64,000 bases of DNA. Origin: Anaerotruncus rubiinfantis. Lineage in GTDB: Bacteria; Bacillota; Clostridia; Oscillospirales; Ruminococcaceae. A program made the translations under genes and the position numbers. Shown here piece after piece: positions 30,380-37,302 of this stretch. Location: NCBI RefSeq assembly GCF_900078395.1, contig NZ_FKLA01000009.1:820614-884613 (forward strand), read 5' to 3'. Every line of letters starts with the position of its first letter. Position 1 is the stretch's first letter. Below the pieces are notes generated by a model that saw only the letters and a list, made by a program, of their open reading frames with translations, was not told where the DNA came from and did no database searches.

Positions 30380-30434
30380 TTTTACGTGGATTTTACAGAG
30401 CTGAGCTTGTGACTTTACAATGTAAAACTATAAT
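30380..30434 (+). promoter_or_regulatory. Pho boxes and promoter of the pst operon
   Basis: TTTTAC at 30380 and 30391 and CTTTAC at 30413 are spaced 11 and 22 bases, i.e. on one helical period, as in Firmicutes PhoP sites (TTTACA-type repeats). TTGTGA (30407-30412), 16 bases and TATAAT (30429-30434) form the promoter. The response regulator PhoP is encoded in the operon. Confidence 0.7.
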
Positions 30435-30508: not shown

Positions 30509-31441
30509 ATGAAAAGAATTCTTGGCATAACACTTGCGGCAATGATGTCCCTTTCGCTGCTCGCCGGATGCGGCGGCTCCGATGAGCCTTCTTCGAGCAC
30601 CGCCCCCGCGGCGCCCGCTTCCTCCGCAGCCCCGGCTTCTTCCGAAGCGCCCAAAGGTATGGAAGGCCCGATCACCGTTGTCTCCCGGGAACCCGGTTCC
30701 GGTACCCGCGGCGCGTTTATCGAATTGATGGGCATTGAGGAGAAGGGCGCGGACGGTACAAAGACCGACCACACCACTCAGGATGCGGTTATTGCCAGCC
30801 AGACCAACGTGGTTATGACCAACGTCGCGGGCGACCCGAACGCGATCGGTTACATCTCCCTCGGTTCGCTCAATGACACCGTGAAAGCGGTCAATGTTGA
30901 CGGCGTGGAAGCGAACGCCGAAAATGTCAAAGCCGGCACCTATAAGGTCGCGCGTCCCTTTAACATCGCCACCAAAGGCGAGCCCACTGGCCTTGCGAAG
31001 GATTTCATCGACTTCATCATGTCAAAAGAAGGCCAGCAGATCGTAGTTGACGCCGGCTACATCGCGGTTGCGGATGACGCCGCCGCCTATGCGGGTGACA
31101 AGCCCCAGGGCCGTCTGGTCATCGCTGGATCCTCCTCGGTTTCCCCGGTTATGGAAAAGCTGGCCGAAGCCTACAAAGCGGTCAATGCCGGCGCTGAGAT
31201 CGAACTGCAGACCAGTGACTCCACTGCGGGCATGACCGCCGCGATCGACGGCACCTGCGACATCGGCATGGCTTCCCGCGGGCTCAAAGATACCGAATCC
31301 GCCGAGCTTGTCGGCCTGGCGATTGCAAACGATGGCATCGCGGTTGTGGTTTCTCCGGAAAATCCGGTTGAGAACCTGACCAGTGAGCAGATCAAAGGCA
31401 TCTTCACCGGCGAAATCATCGACTGGGCCGACGCCCAGTAA
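30509..31441 (+). CDS. pstS: Phosphate ABC transporter substrate-binding lipoprotein, circularly permuted
   Basis: 310 residues. A signal peptide ends in a lipobox (SLLAGC, Cys21), followed by a Ser/Ala/Pro linker to about residue 48. The phosphate-binding fold is in an unusual order. Residues 53-187 match the C-terminal part of ordinary PstS (ITVVSREPGSGTRGAFIEL, later NAIGYISLG, FIDFIMSKEGQQIV). Residues 201-310 match its N-terminal part (GRLVIAGSSSVSPVMEKLAE, DSTAGMTAAIDGTCDIGMASR, then SEQIKGIFTGEIIDWADAQ at the C-terminus). Ordinary PstS has these halves the other way round, joined by W..VGG. Phosphate-binding loops SSSV, ASR and GSGTR are all retained. It is followed by pstC, pstA and pstB. 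Confidence 0.92.
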   Translation: MKRILGITLAAMMSLSLLAGCGGSDEPSSSTAPAAPASSAAPASSEAPKGMEGPITVVSREPGSGTRGAFIELMGIEEKGADGTKTDHTTQDAVIASQTNVVMTNVAGDPNAIGYISLGSLNDTVKAVNVDGVEANAENVKAGTYKVARPFNIATKGEPTGLAKDFIDFIMSKEGQQIVVDAGYIAVADDAAAYAGDKPQGRLVIAGSSSVSPVMEKLAEAYKAVNAGAEIELQTSDSTAGMTAAIDGTCDIGMASRGLKDTESAELVGLAIANDGIAVVVSPENPVENLTSEQIKGIFTGEIIDWADAQ

Positions 31442-32502: not shown

Positions 32503-33390
32503 ATGGCGGGACAGAAAGACGCGGTCCGGGGGATCAACCGGGTCGGCATTGCCCGAAAATGCAAGGACTATCTGGCGCATCCGCTCTCGCTGCTCCTCTT
32601 TTTGCTGGTGACGCTTGCGGCGGTCATCACGGTATTCGTCCTCTTTTACATCATCGTTTATATCCTGGCCAAGGGCGTCCCTTACCTAACGCCCTCCCTT
32701 TTTGAGCTCACCTACACCTCGGAGAACGTTTCACTCTTTCCTGCGATCGTCACAACGGTGCAGATGACCTTTCTTTCGCTGCTCATTGCCGCGCCGCTTG
32801 GGATCTTCACGGCCGTTTACCTGGTGGAATATGCCAAACGCGGCAACAAGGTGGTCGAACTGGTGCGGATCACCTCCGAAACCCTCTCCGGAATCCCTTC
32901 GATCGTCTATGGGCTTTTTGGCATGCTCTTTTTCGTCACAGCGCTGCACTGGAGTTTCTCGCTCATCGCGGGCGCCTGCACGCTGGCAATCATGATCCTG
33001 CCGCTCATCATGCGCACCACCGAGGAAGCGCTCAAATCGGTGCCCGATTCCTTCCGCGAGGCCAGCTTCGGGCTTGGCGCGGGGAAACTTCGCACGGTCT
33101 TTAAAATTGTACTGCCGTCCGCAGTGCCGGGTATCCTGGCGGGTATCATCTTGGCTATCGGGCGCATTGTCGGCGAGACCGCCGCGCTCATCTACACAGC
33201 CGGCACGGTGGCGCAGATCCCCGGATCGCTGATGGCGTCCGGACGCACGCTGGCCATCCATATGTACGTGCTCTCAAGCGAAGGGCTCCACACAAACGAG
33301 GCTTACGCCACGGCGGTCGTTCTGCTGGTGACCGTCCTGCTGATCAACACGCTGTCCGCGGTAATCGCGAAACGACTGACAAAGGGGTAA
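32503..33390 (+). CDS. pstA: Phosphate ABC transporter permease PstA
   Basis: 295 residues, six membrane helices. The motif [14 protein letters not shown] and the coupling loop [22 protein letters not shown]...AVPGILAG are those of PstA, and the C-terminal [19 protein letters not shown] is the last helix. It starts immediately after the pstC stop and ends five bases before pstB, so the three are translated as one unit. A 26-residue cytoplasmic N-terminal extension precedes the first helix. Confidence 0.95.
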
Positions 33391-33395
33391 TATCC

Positions 33396-34151
33396 ATGAA
33401 CGGTATCAAATTTGCAATCGAGGATCTCGACCTTTATTACGGCGATTTTAAGGCGCTCAAGGATATCAACCTGCGGCTTCGGGAAAAGACGATCACCGCT
33501 TTTATCGGGCCTTCCGGCTGCGGGAAGTCCACCCTGCTCAAATCCCTTAACCGGATGAACGATCTGGTGGAGGGCTGCCGGATCACCGGGAAGGTGACGC
33601 TTGACGGGGAGGATATCTATGGAGATATGGACATCAATACGCTGCGCAAGCGGGTCGGCATGGTCTTTCAGAAGCCAAACCCGTTCCCGATGAGCGTCTA
33701 CGACAATATCGCATATGGCCCGCGCACCCATGGAATCCGCTCAAAGGGCAAGCTCGACGAGATCGTCGAACAGAGCCTGCGTTCCGCCGCGATTTGGGAC
33801 GAACTCAAGGACCGGCTCAAAAAATCGGCGCTCGGGCTTTCGGGCGGCCAGCAGCAGCGGCTTTGCATCGCCCGCGCGCTGGCGGTCGACCCGGAGGTTC
33901 TTTTGATGGACGAACCGACCAGCGCGCTCGATCCGATTTCCACTTCTAAAATCGAGGACCTTGTGTTAGAATTGAAGCAGAAATACACGATCATTATCGT
34001 GACCCACAATATGCAGCAGGCCACGCGCATCTCGGACGAGACGGCGTTCTTCCTGCTCGGCGAGGTGGTTGAGTTCTGCGACACCGAGCGGATGTTCTCG
34101 ATGCCGGGAGACAAGCGAACCGAAGATTACATCACCGGCCGGTTCGGATGA
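33396..34151 (+). CDS. pstB: Phosphate ABC transporter ATPase PstB
   Basis: 251 residues. Walker [21 protein letters not shown] (the long RMND tail is specific to PstB), the ABC signature [17 protein letters not shown], Walker [14 protein letters not shown], and the H-loop [13 protein letters not shown]. It powers phosphate import by the PstCA pore. The C-terminus [10 protein letters not shown] is normal. GGGGTAATATCC leads to ATG 33396; phoU follows after 24 bases. Confidence 0.97.
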
Positions 34152-34175: not shown

Positions 34176-34835
34176 ATGAGAAACCGTTTTGACAAGGAAC
34201 TGGAACTTTTAAATACCGAACTGATTAAGATGGGCCAGCTTGTGGAAAGCGCCATCCGTGACGCGGTCAAAGCGCTTCTGGAAAAGGATCTCGCGCTTGC
34301 GAAAAAAGCGATTCAGTTCGATTCCGAAGTGGATGAAAAGGAAAAGGAGATTGAACACCGCTGCATGAAACTGCTTTTGCAGCAGCAGCCGGTCGCCGCC
34401 GACCTGCGGCTCATCTCCACCGCGCTCAAAATGATCACCGATATGGAACGCATCGGTGACCAGGCGCAGGATATCTCGGAAATCACCATCCGGCTCATCA
34501 ATGAGGAATATATCGACTCGCTCGAGCACATCCCGCAGATGGCCGAGGCGACCATCAAAATGGTCACAGAAGCGATCGACGCCTTCGTCAGCCGCGACAT
34601 GGCGCTCGCACAGGCGGTCATCGAATATGACGATGTGGTGGATAATCTCTTCATCGAGGTGAAGGACGACCTGATCCGCCTCATCCGCCAGGACCCGGCG
34701 AATGGCGAACAGGCGATCGACCTCATCATGGTGGCGAAATATTTTGAGCGGATCGGCGATCATGCGACGAATATTGCCGAATGGGTGGTCTTTTCGATCA
34801 CCGGCGAGCATGTCGGGGACCATCCGGTCGATTAA
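34176..34835 (+). CDS. phoU: Phosphate signalling protein PhoU
   Basis: 219 residues made of two three-helix repeats. The E/DxxxD iron-binding motifs appear as FDSEVDEKEKEIEHRC in the first repeat and YDDVVDNLFIEVKDD in the second; KYFERIGDHATNIAEWVVF is the family's C-terminal signature. PhoU links the Pst transporter to the PhoR kinase and dampens the Pho response when phosphate is plentiful. AAAAGGGGAAAAGCC precedes the ATG. It is the last transport-linked gene before the two-component pair. Confidence 0.95.
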   Translation: MRNRFDKELELLNTELIKMGQLVESAIRDAVKALLEKDLALAKKAIQFDSEVDEKEKEIEHRCMKLLLQQQPVAADLRLISTALKMITDMERIGDQAQDISEITIRLINEEYIDSLEHIPQMAEATIKMVTEAIDAFVSRDMALAQAVIEYDDVVDNLFIEVKDDLIRLIRQDPANGEQAIDLIMVAKYFERIGDHATNIAEWVVFSITGEHVGDHPVD

Positions 34836-34918
34836 ACCCGGATGGCCGCCTTTGGCGGCAGATGGCGCTGGAAGCCCGCGGAGCGGGCGGATCACATGAG
34901 CAAAGGAGTTTATGCGGT

Positions 34919-35599
34919 ATGGCAGGGACACGCATTTATCTGGTGGAAGACGACGAGAGCATCCGGGAACTGATCCTGTACGCCCTCACGAGCAGCGGGT
35001 TTGAAGCGCAGGGCTTTGACTGTGCCGAACCCTTTTGGGTGGCGGTGAAACAGCGCTCCCCGGGACTGGTGCTGCTGGACATCATGTTGCCGGGCGATGA
35101 CGGCCTTGCCATCCTGCGCCGCTTGAAGGAGTCCGGCGGCACGTCGCAGGTGCCAGTGATCATGCTGACCGCAAAGGCCACCGAATACGACAAGGTGAAG
35201 GGGCTTGACCTCGGTGCGGACGATTACATAACCAAACCGTTCGGGGTTATGGAACTGATCTCACGCATTCGGGCGGTGCTGCGCCGCGTGAAACCCGAGG
35301 AGAATATCGCGCTTGTTTCCTGCGGGGGGATCACCCTCGATGAGGAGCGGCGCACCGTCACCTCACAGGGGGAGCCGGTTACGCTGACCTATAAGGAATT
35401 TGAGCTGCTCAGTTACCTTCTGCGCAATGAGGGGATTGTGCTCACCCGGGAAAAGATCATGGAACGGGTGTGGGGATTTGATTATGAAGGCGAAAGCCGC
35501 ACGGTGGATATGCATATCAAATCGCTGCGGCAGAAGCTCGGCGCATGCGGCGCGCTGATCCAAACCGTGCGCGGCGTGGGTTATAAGGTTTCGGTTTAA
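34919..35599 (+). CDS. phoP: PhoB/PhoP-type response regulator
   Basis: 226 residues: a receiver domain (MAGTRIYLVEDDESIRELIL, phosphoacceptor Asp54 in VLLDIMLPGDDG, ADDYITKPFG) and an OmpR-type winged helix (TYKEFELLSYLLRNEGIVLTREKIMERVWG, then RTVDMHIKSLRQKLG, and TVRGVGYKV). I start it at ATG 34919, after AAAGGAG with a 10-base spacing; the open frame begins far upstream inside the phoU end. It probably binds the 11-bp-spaced Pho boxes before pstS. Confidence 0.93.
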   Translation: MAGTRIYLVEDDESIRELILYALTSSGFEAQGFDCAEPFWVAVKQRSPGLVLLDIMLPGDDGLAILRRLKESGGTSQVPVIMLTAKATEYDKVKGLDLGADDYITKPFGVMELISRIRAVLRRVKPEENIALVSCGGITLDEERRTVTSQGEPVTLTYKEFELLSYLLRNEGIVLTREKIMERVWGFDYEGESRTVDMHIKSLRQKLGACGALIQTVRGVGYKVSV

Positions 35600-35619: not shown

Positions 35620-37302
35620 GTGAAAAGAAGAATGTATTGGAGTCTGTGCGCCACCTCGATTTTGCTTGTGCTGCTCACCATGGCGCTGACCCTCTGGTCG
35701 GTCTATGGGCTGCTTGTCCGGCAGGCAAAGACCGATCTGCGGCAGGAATATAACCTGATTGCAAGATCTATCACCTATGCCGCGCCAAACGCAGCTGATT
35801 ACCTGGACAGTCTGGATCTGCGTCTTGAGAGCTTCCGCGTCACAATGATCGCGCCGGACGGCACGGTGCTCTTTGACACCGACAACAATTCCAATAAGAT
35901 GGAAAACCACCTGTCCCGTCCGGAGATTGCCTCGGCGCTTGAAACCGGAAAGGGTGAAGACATCCGCCGGTCCGAAACGATGGGGCTGGATTCGTTCTAC
36001 TATGCGGAAAAGCTTCCGGACGGCAGCGTGCTGCGCGTCTCGAACCAGACGCGCAGCATCGGCGCCGTATTTGTGAGCATCATCCCGCTGATTGCGGGGA
36101 TCGTGCTGGTTATCCTGGTGGCGGGTATGGCGATTGCGTCGCGGCTGACCCGGCGGATGCTCCGCCCGATCGAAGAGCTCGCGAAGAACATCGGGAACAC
36201 CGATACCCTCGAAGGCTATGAGGAACTCGAGCCGTTTTTCGTAAAAATCCGGGAACAAAACCGGTTGATCAGCCAGCAGATGGAGCATCTGCGCGAGGAG
36301 CGGGACACCATCCGGACGATTACCTCAAACATGAAGGAGGGACTGGTGCTTCTGGACAGAGGCCGTTCGATCCTTTCGGTCAACCGCAGCGCAATCTCCC
36401 TGCTTGGGGCCAAAAGCGCAGATTACACCGGAAAGAACCTGCTCAATCTTTCGCGCGGCGTGGAAATGGACGAATGTGTCGGAAGGGCGCTTGCCGGGGC
36501 CAGCGCCGATGTGGTTGTCGACTGCGACGGGCGCGCCTGCCACATTTTTGCAAGCCCTGTGCTGAACGCCGGGGAGGTCTGCGGCGCGATCGTGCTCATC
36601 ATGGACGTGACCGAGCAGCAGAAGGCGGAGAAGATACGCCGCGATTTTACCGCGAACGTTTCCCATGAGCTCAAAACCCCGCTCACCTCGATATCTGGCT
36701 TTGCGGAGATGATCGAAAACGGCATGGTGGGGCAGGAGGCGGACGTGAAAAAATTTGCCGGCCGCATCTATCGCGAGGCAAGCCGTCTGATCACCCTCAC
36801 CGACGACATCATCCGTCTCGCACGGATCGAGGAGGACGGCCGGGCGGATATGGAGCCGGTCGATCTCAAAGCGGTGGCGGACAGTGTGGTAAATACCCTC
36901 GCTTTTACCGCGGAGCAAAAACAGGTGGCGATTGCCGCCGGAGGCGGGCCGCTTACCGTGCAGGGCAATGCGCGCATGCTTGAGGAGCTCGTTTATAACC
37001 TCGCGGAAAATGCCGTCAAATATAATCGGCCGGGCGGCCGGGTGGATATCGGCGTGCGCCGGGAGGGGGACTGTGCGGTGCTCACCGTGTCGGACACCGG
37101 AATCGGAATTCCGAAGGAACATCAGGAGCGGATTTTTGAGCGTTTCTACCGGGTGGATAAATCCCGCTCGAAACAGACCGGCGGCACCGGGTTGGGGCTT
37201 TCGATCGTGAAGCATATCGTAGAGCGGCACGGCGGGACCATTTCGCTCGTGAGCGCGCAGGACGCGGGCACCACGGTTACGGCGCGCATCCCGCTGCAAT
37301 AG
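35620..37302 (+). CDS. phoR: PhoR-type sensor histidine kinase
   Basis: 560 residues, GTG start after AGGGGG. Two membrane helices (about 9-32 and 153-174) enclose a 120-residue extracellular sensor with DGTVLFDTDN; a HAMP helix (SRLTRRMLRPIEELAKNI) and a PAS domain follow. His349 in NVSHELKTPLTS is the phosphoacceptor; ATP-binding boxes are NLAENAVKY (N), VSDTGIGIP (G1), RFYRVDKSRS (F) and GTGLGLSIVKHIVE (G2). It phosphorylates PhoP under phosphate limitation. It is the last gene of the operon, and a 20-bp stem terminator follows. Confidence 0.93.
   Translation: MKRRMYWSLCATSILLVLLTMALTLWSVYGLLVRQAKTDLRQEYNLIARSITYAAPNAADYLDSLDLRLESFRVTMIAPDGTVLFDTDNNSNKMENHLSRPEIASALETGKGEDIRRSETMGLDSFYYAEKLPDGSVLRVSNQTRSIGAVFVSIIPLIAGIVLVILVAGMAIASRLTRRMLRPIEELAKNIGNTDTLEGYEELEPFFVKIREQNRLISQQMEHLREERDTIRTITSNMKEGLVLLDRGRSILSVNRSAISLLGAKSADYTGKNLLNLSRGVEMDECVGRALAGASADVVVDCDGRACHIFASPVLNAGEVCGAIVLIMDVTEQQKAEKIRRDFTANVSHELKTPLTSISGFAEMIENGMVGQEADVKKFAGRIYREASRLITLTDDIIRLARIEEDGRADMEPVDLKAVADSVVNTLAFTAEQKQVAIAAGGGPLTVQGNARMLEELVYNLAENAVKYNRPGGRVDIGVRREGDCAVLTVSDTGIGIPKEHQERIFERFYRVDKSRSKQTGGTGLGLSIVKHIVERHGGTISLVSAQDAGTTVTARIPLQ

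Follow-up and report, generated by a model that had tools for sequence, protein, structure and literature searches.

We describe here a gene of Anaerotruncus rubiinfantis that lies in a window of 64,000 nucleotides (the whole stretch of DNA analysed; NCBI RefSeq assembly GCF_900078395.1, contig NZ_FKLA01000009.1, positions 820,614 to 884,613). Its product, P0001, is a lipoprotein PstS in which the C-terminal half of the chain comes first; that is, the protein is circularly permuted. The gene and its parts, in positions of the window, are as follows:

30509..31441, forward strand: permuted pstS encoding P0001, an intact open reading frame (ORF) of 310 amino acids (aa) with an ATG at 30509 and a stop codon at 31439-31441
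30509..30571, forward strand: lipoprotein signal peptide ending at Cys21 (LAGC), read from the sequence
30656..31069, forward strand: residues 50-187, the C-terminal half of conventional PstS, with VSREPGSGTRGAF; positions 114-240 of a 241-position PstS profile match residues 50-185
31070..31108, forward strand: residues 188-200, a linker of 13 residues joining the old C- and N-termini
31109..31438, forward strand: residues 201-310, the N-terminal half of conventional PstS, with GSSSV and DIGMASR, ending at the W loop; profile positions 3-111 match residues 200-308

P0001 runs from its lipobox (LAGC, with a Cys21 that is invariant in a 44-row alignment) through a low-complexity linker to the folded part, which contains the two exchanged halves. 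Against a profile of length 241 built on 128 conventional PstS, the unrotated protein gives two stretches of 156.0 and 125.7 bits that are out of order, whereas a single stretch of 298.6 bits results from rotation at residue 190, the best of 24 cuts made in 10-residue steps and equalled by a cut at 195; with 20 shuffles the score was at most 2.0 bits. Pfam PF12849 (2.5e-36) and NCBIfam TIGR02136 (7e-57) each match P0001 in two stretches, and in the best of these residues 193-308 align with early profile positions. In the PDB, the sequences of conventional PstS (4q8r, 4gd5, 1twy and 4exl) give two matching stretches in exchanged order, and 4h1x gives a single collinear one (residues 50-307, E 2.1e-61). 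An earlier reading of the DNA made without database searches (the initial annotation) had placed the swapped halves at residues 53-187 and 201-310 and had suggested alignment with and without rotation as a check; the rotation test and the collinear match of 4h1x bear the swap out. Its further details also held up: the cut falls at the W-x-x-V-G-G loop, as seen by comparison with the uncut loop of the conventional relative L118, the old ends are joined by about 13 residues, and the lipoprotein signal is intact. The linker between the halves measures 12-19 residues, with a median of 13, in 219 permuted proteins.

The fold agrees with the sequence. A predicted model of P0001 superposes over 257 residues at 1.5 Å on the solved structure 4h1x, and the concern that the two halves might form no single cleft therefore does not hold. 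4H1X is the phosphate-binding protein PstS 2 of Streptococcus pneumoniae (SP_2084); it has been in the PDB since 2012, was crystallised in the permuted order, and its entry title makes no mention of permutation. Both by collinear sequence and by superposable fold, P0001 is of this PstS2 type. Beside PstS2, the pneumococcus has PstS1 (4EXL), a conventional form, and when encapsulated it needs Pst1 or Pst2 (PMC4913102); the link between 4H1X and Pst2 rests on the PDB names, since SP_2084 is not named in the part of that paper available to us. A contrast is offered by conventional PstS such as Clostridium perfringens PBP-1 (4Q8R/4GD5), whose C-half is 45-48% identical to P0001 and which shares most site residues with it, but whose chain keeps the order N then C, is uncut at W-x-x-V-G-G and would carry its anchor on the other lobe.

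Could the exchange of halves be an artefact? A misassembly, or the collapse of a tandem duplication of an ordinary pstS, was one refutation foreseen by the initial annotation; a collapsed tandem duplicate would yield an identical order of halves, and real tandem-fused PstS do exist. This explanation is nevertheless already refuted, and we regard it as practically inconceivable, because independent genomes share the order. In a homologue search that scored at least 7,995 proteins, the C-half comes first in all 120 proteins listed (119 C-N and one C-N-N), and in a scan of genome contigs, in which the best 80 of at least 589 confirmed relatives were analysed, the permuted order lies in a single ORF in 80 of 80 loci; both sets were retrieved with permuted queries, and these counts therefore say nothing on frequency. 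The complete chromosome of Anaerotruncus colihominis carries a permuted pstS, as do complete plasmids of Treponema saccharophilum and Monoglobus pectinilyticus, where it is followed by pstC, pstA, pstB and phoU (2 of the 36 matching records of the plasmid search cover at least 80% of the query). The crystallised chain of 4H1X has the same order.

Two minor observations came from these searches. The single C-N-N protein, P0007, is a permuted PstS whose N-half contains a repeat, in frame, of some 33 residues. Among phage records, 5 of 21 matching ones cover at least 80% of the query (MT837530, MT837962, MT838544, MT838145 and MT837061); these small unannotated faecal 'Bacteriophage sp.' records with a permuted pstS are probably bacterial DNA.

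With regard to function, we are highly confident that P0001 is the phosphate receptor of the Pst importer, anchored by a lipid and circularly permuted. R60, S64, G65, T66, S208, S238, G241 and S256 are shared by all of the 42 permuted rows of the tree, and R257 by 40 of them; the same residues are present in 51-55 of 55 conventional rows. By analogy with E. coli PstS, R60, S64, G65, T66, S208, S238, S256 and R257 would be ligand-binding. P0001 would close on phosphate like any PstS and deliver it to PstC/PstA. Some observations speak against so simple a picture. The initial annotation had considered the phosphate-binding loops intact, which holds for most site residues but not for two positions near the site: Ser209 occurs in 39 of 42 permuted rows where 51 of 55 conventional rows have Thr, and Asp237 in 39 of 42 where all 55 conventional rows have Gly, so that affinity or selectivity may differ. 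A conventional PstS also accompanies the permuted one in G002 and G006, which belong to a set of nine chosen genomes, and in G409 and G038, which lie outside it.

One might accordingly imagine a permuted protein that has a different anion as its ligand, or one that has turned into a sensor and is no longer the transport receptor, and both the Asp237 that replaces Gly beside the conserved Ser238 and the name that NCBI gives to the relatives, where it gives one (substrate-binding domain-containing protein), would suit that idea. We find it very improbable. Most site residues are identical to those of conventional PstS, the permuted pstS is the first gene of pstCAB-phoU with a Pho-box-like repeat upstream, and two listed relatives are called phosphate transport system substrate-binding protein by JGI. 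The pneumococcal Pst2 has been studied as an importer of inorganic phosphate (PMC4913102). Besides, TIGR02136 found no other PstS in seven of the nine chosen genomes with a permuted one, which are relatives of the window strain, and a number of anaerobes therefore seem to rely on the permuted form for phosphate. As a separate observation, genome G038 holds two permuted PstS and one conventional PstS (contigs C42, C35 and C36).

The genes that follow the permuted pstS, and the repeat that precedes it, are these:

30380..30396, forward strand: Pho-box-like direct repeat TTTTAC-N5-TTTTAC, ending 112 base pairs before the start codon
31615..32502, forward strand: pstC (TIGR02138, 309.8 bits, cut-off 196.45)
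32503..33390, forward strand: pstA (TIGR00974, 275.3 bits, cut-off 193.45)
33396..34151, forward strand: pstB (TIGR00972, 417.4 bits, cut-off 343.2)
34176..34835, forward strand: phoU (TIGR02135, 219.2 bits, cut-off 130.25)
34781..35599, forward strand: PhoB-like response regulator (TIGR02154 best, 233.3 bits, under the cut-off of 296.2)
35620..37302, forward strand: PnpS/PhoR-like sensor histidine kinase (NF046044 best, 328 bits, under the cut-off of 400)

The pstCAB genes reported to follow are thus in place, with pstC, pstA, pstB and phoU all above their NCBIfam cut-offs, and no second PstS was found within the 64 kilobases (kb) of the window. The mechanical ORF start of the PhoB-like regulator probably lies too far upstream, the match starting at residue 50. 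The arrangement recurs elsewhere: PstC is found within 1.2 kb downstream in 66 of the 75 loci with at least 1.2 kb of flank, and the order PstC-PstA-PstB-PhoU in 53 of 80 loci, plus two with a short flank. Concerning the repeat, the window holds a single exact copy, where 0.14 matches would be expected at up to one mismatch. The pattern, chosen after it had been sighted in the window and in L049, stands upstream of the permuted pstS in 13 loci exactly (L049 included) and in 31 with one mismatch, versus 0 and 0.5 in shuffles, among the 78 of 80 loci whose upstream sequence is long enough; by its form it would be a Pho box. In another locus (L054:2782-3591), a second and diverged permuted PstS-like lipoprotein, P0125, which scores under the PF12849 cut-off, is encoded just upstream of the permuted pstS.

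Permuted PstS are widespread. With P0001 as the query, matches to both halves in one stretch occur in at least 14 of 398 genomes from the phylum of A. colihominis (at least 13 of 397 without the chosen centre), in at least 4 of 149 from the phylum of an Adlercreutzia genome (at least 3 of 148 without the centre) and in at least 6 of 149 from the phylum of a Spirochaetia genome (at least 5 of 148), the latter two with E values up to 1e-20; these frequencies are lower bounds because split matches were not counted. One metagenome-assembled genome (MAG) of Synergistaceae and one of Anaerolineaceae also carry a permuted PstS. The lipobox pattern is present in 200 of 219 permuted proteins and in 79 of 127 conventional ones, a comparison that we do not use as evidence because the conventional set is mixed and its N-termini are cut.

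How might the halves have changed places? If two tandem copies were fused in frame (N-C-N-C) and the fusion then lost its outer halves, the permuted order would result. Among 245 proteins, 27 are N-C-N-C, two are N-C-N-C-N-C and one is a C-N-C lipoprotein; the distinct N-C-N-C proteins number fewer than 27, since two of them were translated from L115 and L116, and the L115 translation and P0126 are 100% identical. P0126, a tandem-fused PstS of a Clostridium sp., lies on a contig of 3.83 Mb, and the fused form occurs in two further genomes of the A. colihominis phylum (G319 and G362), which shows that the likely intermediate can exist. The middle part of L115 (C1-N2) matches P0001 in one stretch (residues 50-308, 48% identity). 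Unlike P0001, P0126 keeps both outer halves, and it belongs to other PstS branches. As a direct ancestor, the tandem-fused PstS was rejected for the rows that could be placed (9 of 24 tandem proteins with full halves): in a 119-row tree their two copies fall together, in the company of other conventional PstS.

With no direct ancestor found, one may ask whether pstS was instead split into half-genes that were re-fused in the opposite order. Half-length frames do exist, namely in L174:996-1879 (G288), where frames for the N-half and the C-half overlap in different reading frames, and in a 95-aa frame with stops in G068. Yet the frames of L174 stand in the conventional order and resemble a single gene with a frameshift, fused forms (N-C-N-C, N-C-N-C-N-C and one C-N-C lipoprotein) were seen while no search was aimed at separate half-genes, and the linker has the same length between tandem copies (median 12.5) as in the permuted proteins (median 13). 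Fission and re-fusion seem to us quite unlikely, and tandem duplication followed by loss is the route that we favour.

Other fused arrangements were noticed. P0129 and P0131 (836-837 aa) are triple tandem-fused PstS (N-C-N-C-N-C), P0153 (794 aa) combines PstS halves in the order C(part)-N-C-N with a transporter permease domain (PF00528, residues 589-792), and a 649-aa ORF with a match to the PstS C-half that adjoins another pstS (G098:C20:33452-34840) is possibly a further fused form. Three proteins come from short contigs, the C-N-C P0137 (2,694 bases) and the N-C-N P0155 (2,928 bases) and P0166 (1,702 bases); they may be metagenome chimeras and were left out of the careful trees.

Concerning the number of origins, the permutation would most likely have been a single event, in an operon lineage that had a PstC of its own, and the permuted form would then have passed between phyla. 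The trees fit one origin and do not prove it. In the 119-row PstS tree, 39 of 42 permuted rows and four chimera rows form a starred group, with 4h1x and L117/L163 nearby in unresolved positions. A 62-row tree, made without L089, L167, the chimeras and doubles, 11 of the permuted rows and the majority of the conventional ones, places 4h1x with the main permuted clade (98/89, starred). In a 51-row tree (the 62 rows minus 13, plus two spirochaete rows with an odd loop), the permuted and odd-loop rows are separated from 25 conventional rows (93/89, not starred), the odd-loop rows adjoin L117/L163 (65/67), and a single clade of all permuted rows is not rejected (p-value of the approximately unbiased test, p-AU, 0.384). 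A 40-row PstC tree, without L043 (whose extracted partner resembles PstA), L089, L139, L141, L157 and others, unites the partners of 23 permuted rows, including L117/L163, with that of the conventional-order L167 in a starred clade (100/99); the 23 held together without L167 are not rejected (p-AU 0.406).

The two odd-loop spirochaete PstS (L167/L173, G703:C90; and L172:4519-5355, G610) have the normal order of halves, are without the W-x-x-V-G-G loop and group with the permuted PstS; in both operons PstC is fused to PstA (ORFs of 614 and 594 aa). They are either proteins that may have been permuted back or the nearest unpermuted sister.

The permutation may also have moved the anchor. The initial annotation held that the old termini lie in one lobe, which agrees with our placing them in lobe 1, and that the chain crosses between lobes; we would place the W loop, and with it the new ends, within lobe 2 and not between the lobes, judging in part by the lobe limits of E. 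coli PstS. The lipid tether would then hold lobe 2, since the new ends would be there and the old ones in lobe 1; any effect of the moved anchor is conjecture. Put together, it is conceivable, though we advance it as a doubtful proposal, that a single ancient permutation shifted the PstS lipid anchor to lobe 2 from lobe 1, that the permuted form, together with a PstC lineage of its own, extended across Bacillota, Actinomycetota and Spirochaetota (with one MAG each from Synergistota and Chloroflexota), and that on at least one occasion the change was reversed. If true, one family of transporters would offer both a forward and a reverse permutation, and with them a direct test of the tethering hypothesis.

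Several points weigh against our main reading, that of a permuted phosphate receptor which arose once by tandem duplication. In the 62-row tree all 31 permuted rows lie on one side of a weak branch (42/78), which joins L117/L163 to the rest; the placement of 4h1x is unresolved in the 51-row tree once the two odd-loop rows are included; and the PstC partners of the permuted rows are one clade only when L167 is included. The tandem copies stand apart from the permuted clade and are therefore parallel cases, which show only that such a step occurs. The lobes of P0001 were assigned from the domain boundaries of E. coli PstS, which presumably apply here. A quick 72-row PstC tree with L043 gives three changes of the permuted label. 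The weak branch, together with two changes of order in the 119-row tree (chimeras not counted), would suit a permutation that arose more than once, in the main clade with PstS2 and separately in L117/L163. We think this unlikely, as all permuted proteins share one point of division between the halves, the PstC partners of L117/L163 fall inside the starred clade of permuted partners, and the single clade of PstS rows is not rejected. A single origin is the reading that we retain.

Has such a protein been described before? The initial annotation knew of no description, and none of a permuted PstS was found in the literature searched, most subscription journals being outside its reach; two PstS structure papers (PMC5439949 and PMC12421899) contain no word beginning with 'permut' in the main text as available, and the available parts of PMC12667903 and PMC10087775 hold nothing relevant. 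On the other hand, the form is widespread, its structure has long been public, and natural permutants are on record among other solute-binding proteins (PMC4990184, PMC2395249). The permuted PstS is thus real and widespread, and the permutation itself is already known in other binding proteins. TpMglB-2 (Tp0684) is a circularly permuted glucose-binding lipoprotein proposed as Type Ic or Cluster Bc, with relatives in treponemes and Gram-positives and a hypothesis about tethering (PMC4990184, in the part available). Like P0001, it is a natural circular permutation of a membrane-tethered ABC solute-binding lipoprotein; it is of the Type I, Cluster B fold class of sugar binders, probably unlike P0001, and has another ligand. 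It is not among the 50 rows listed for the predicted P0001 model, an absence that is not an exclusion. The glycine-betaine-binding set (B. subtilis OpuAC 2B4L, and 1R9L) also contains circular permutants of two-lobed binders, according to the available text of PMC2395249. OpuAC is collinear with the P0001 model over 210-218 residues, a longer alignment than that of any listed row of conventional PstS, but it binds betaines, shares 12-13% identity and is not a PstS.

Permuted and conventional PstS make up a natural pair, with the same type of operon, a near-identical site and an anchor that would sit on the other lobe, through which the role of the tether and of chain order in ligand capture and hand-over could be approached, a question already raised for TpMglB-2 in 2016 (PMC4990184, in the part available). 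Tandem fusions, triple fusions and permuted forms of one receptor stand here side by side.

Family models bear on how such proteins are found. P0001 scores 192.9 bits in all against TIGR02136, in two swapped stretches and under the curated cut-off of 206.6; both halves are homologous to the model, and a collinear score over the cut-off is not reached. Ten of ten other permuted homologues also fall under it (177.3-199.9), versus ten of ten conventional homologues above it (234.7-266.6). Surveys with TIGR02136 can thus miss permuted PstS, because 11 of the 11 scored one by one fall under the cut-off. The best of the 44 permuted rows (E 4.9e-64) probably passes it, and the conventional PstS of G006 is also below it (188.2 bits).
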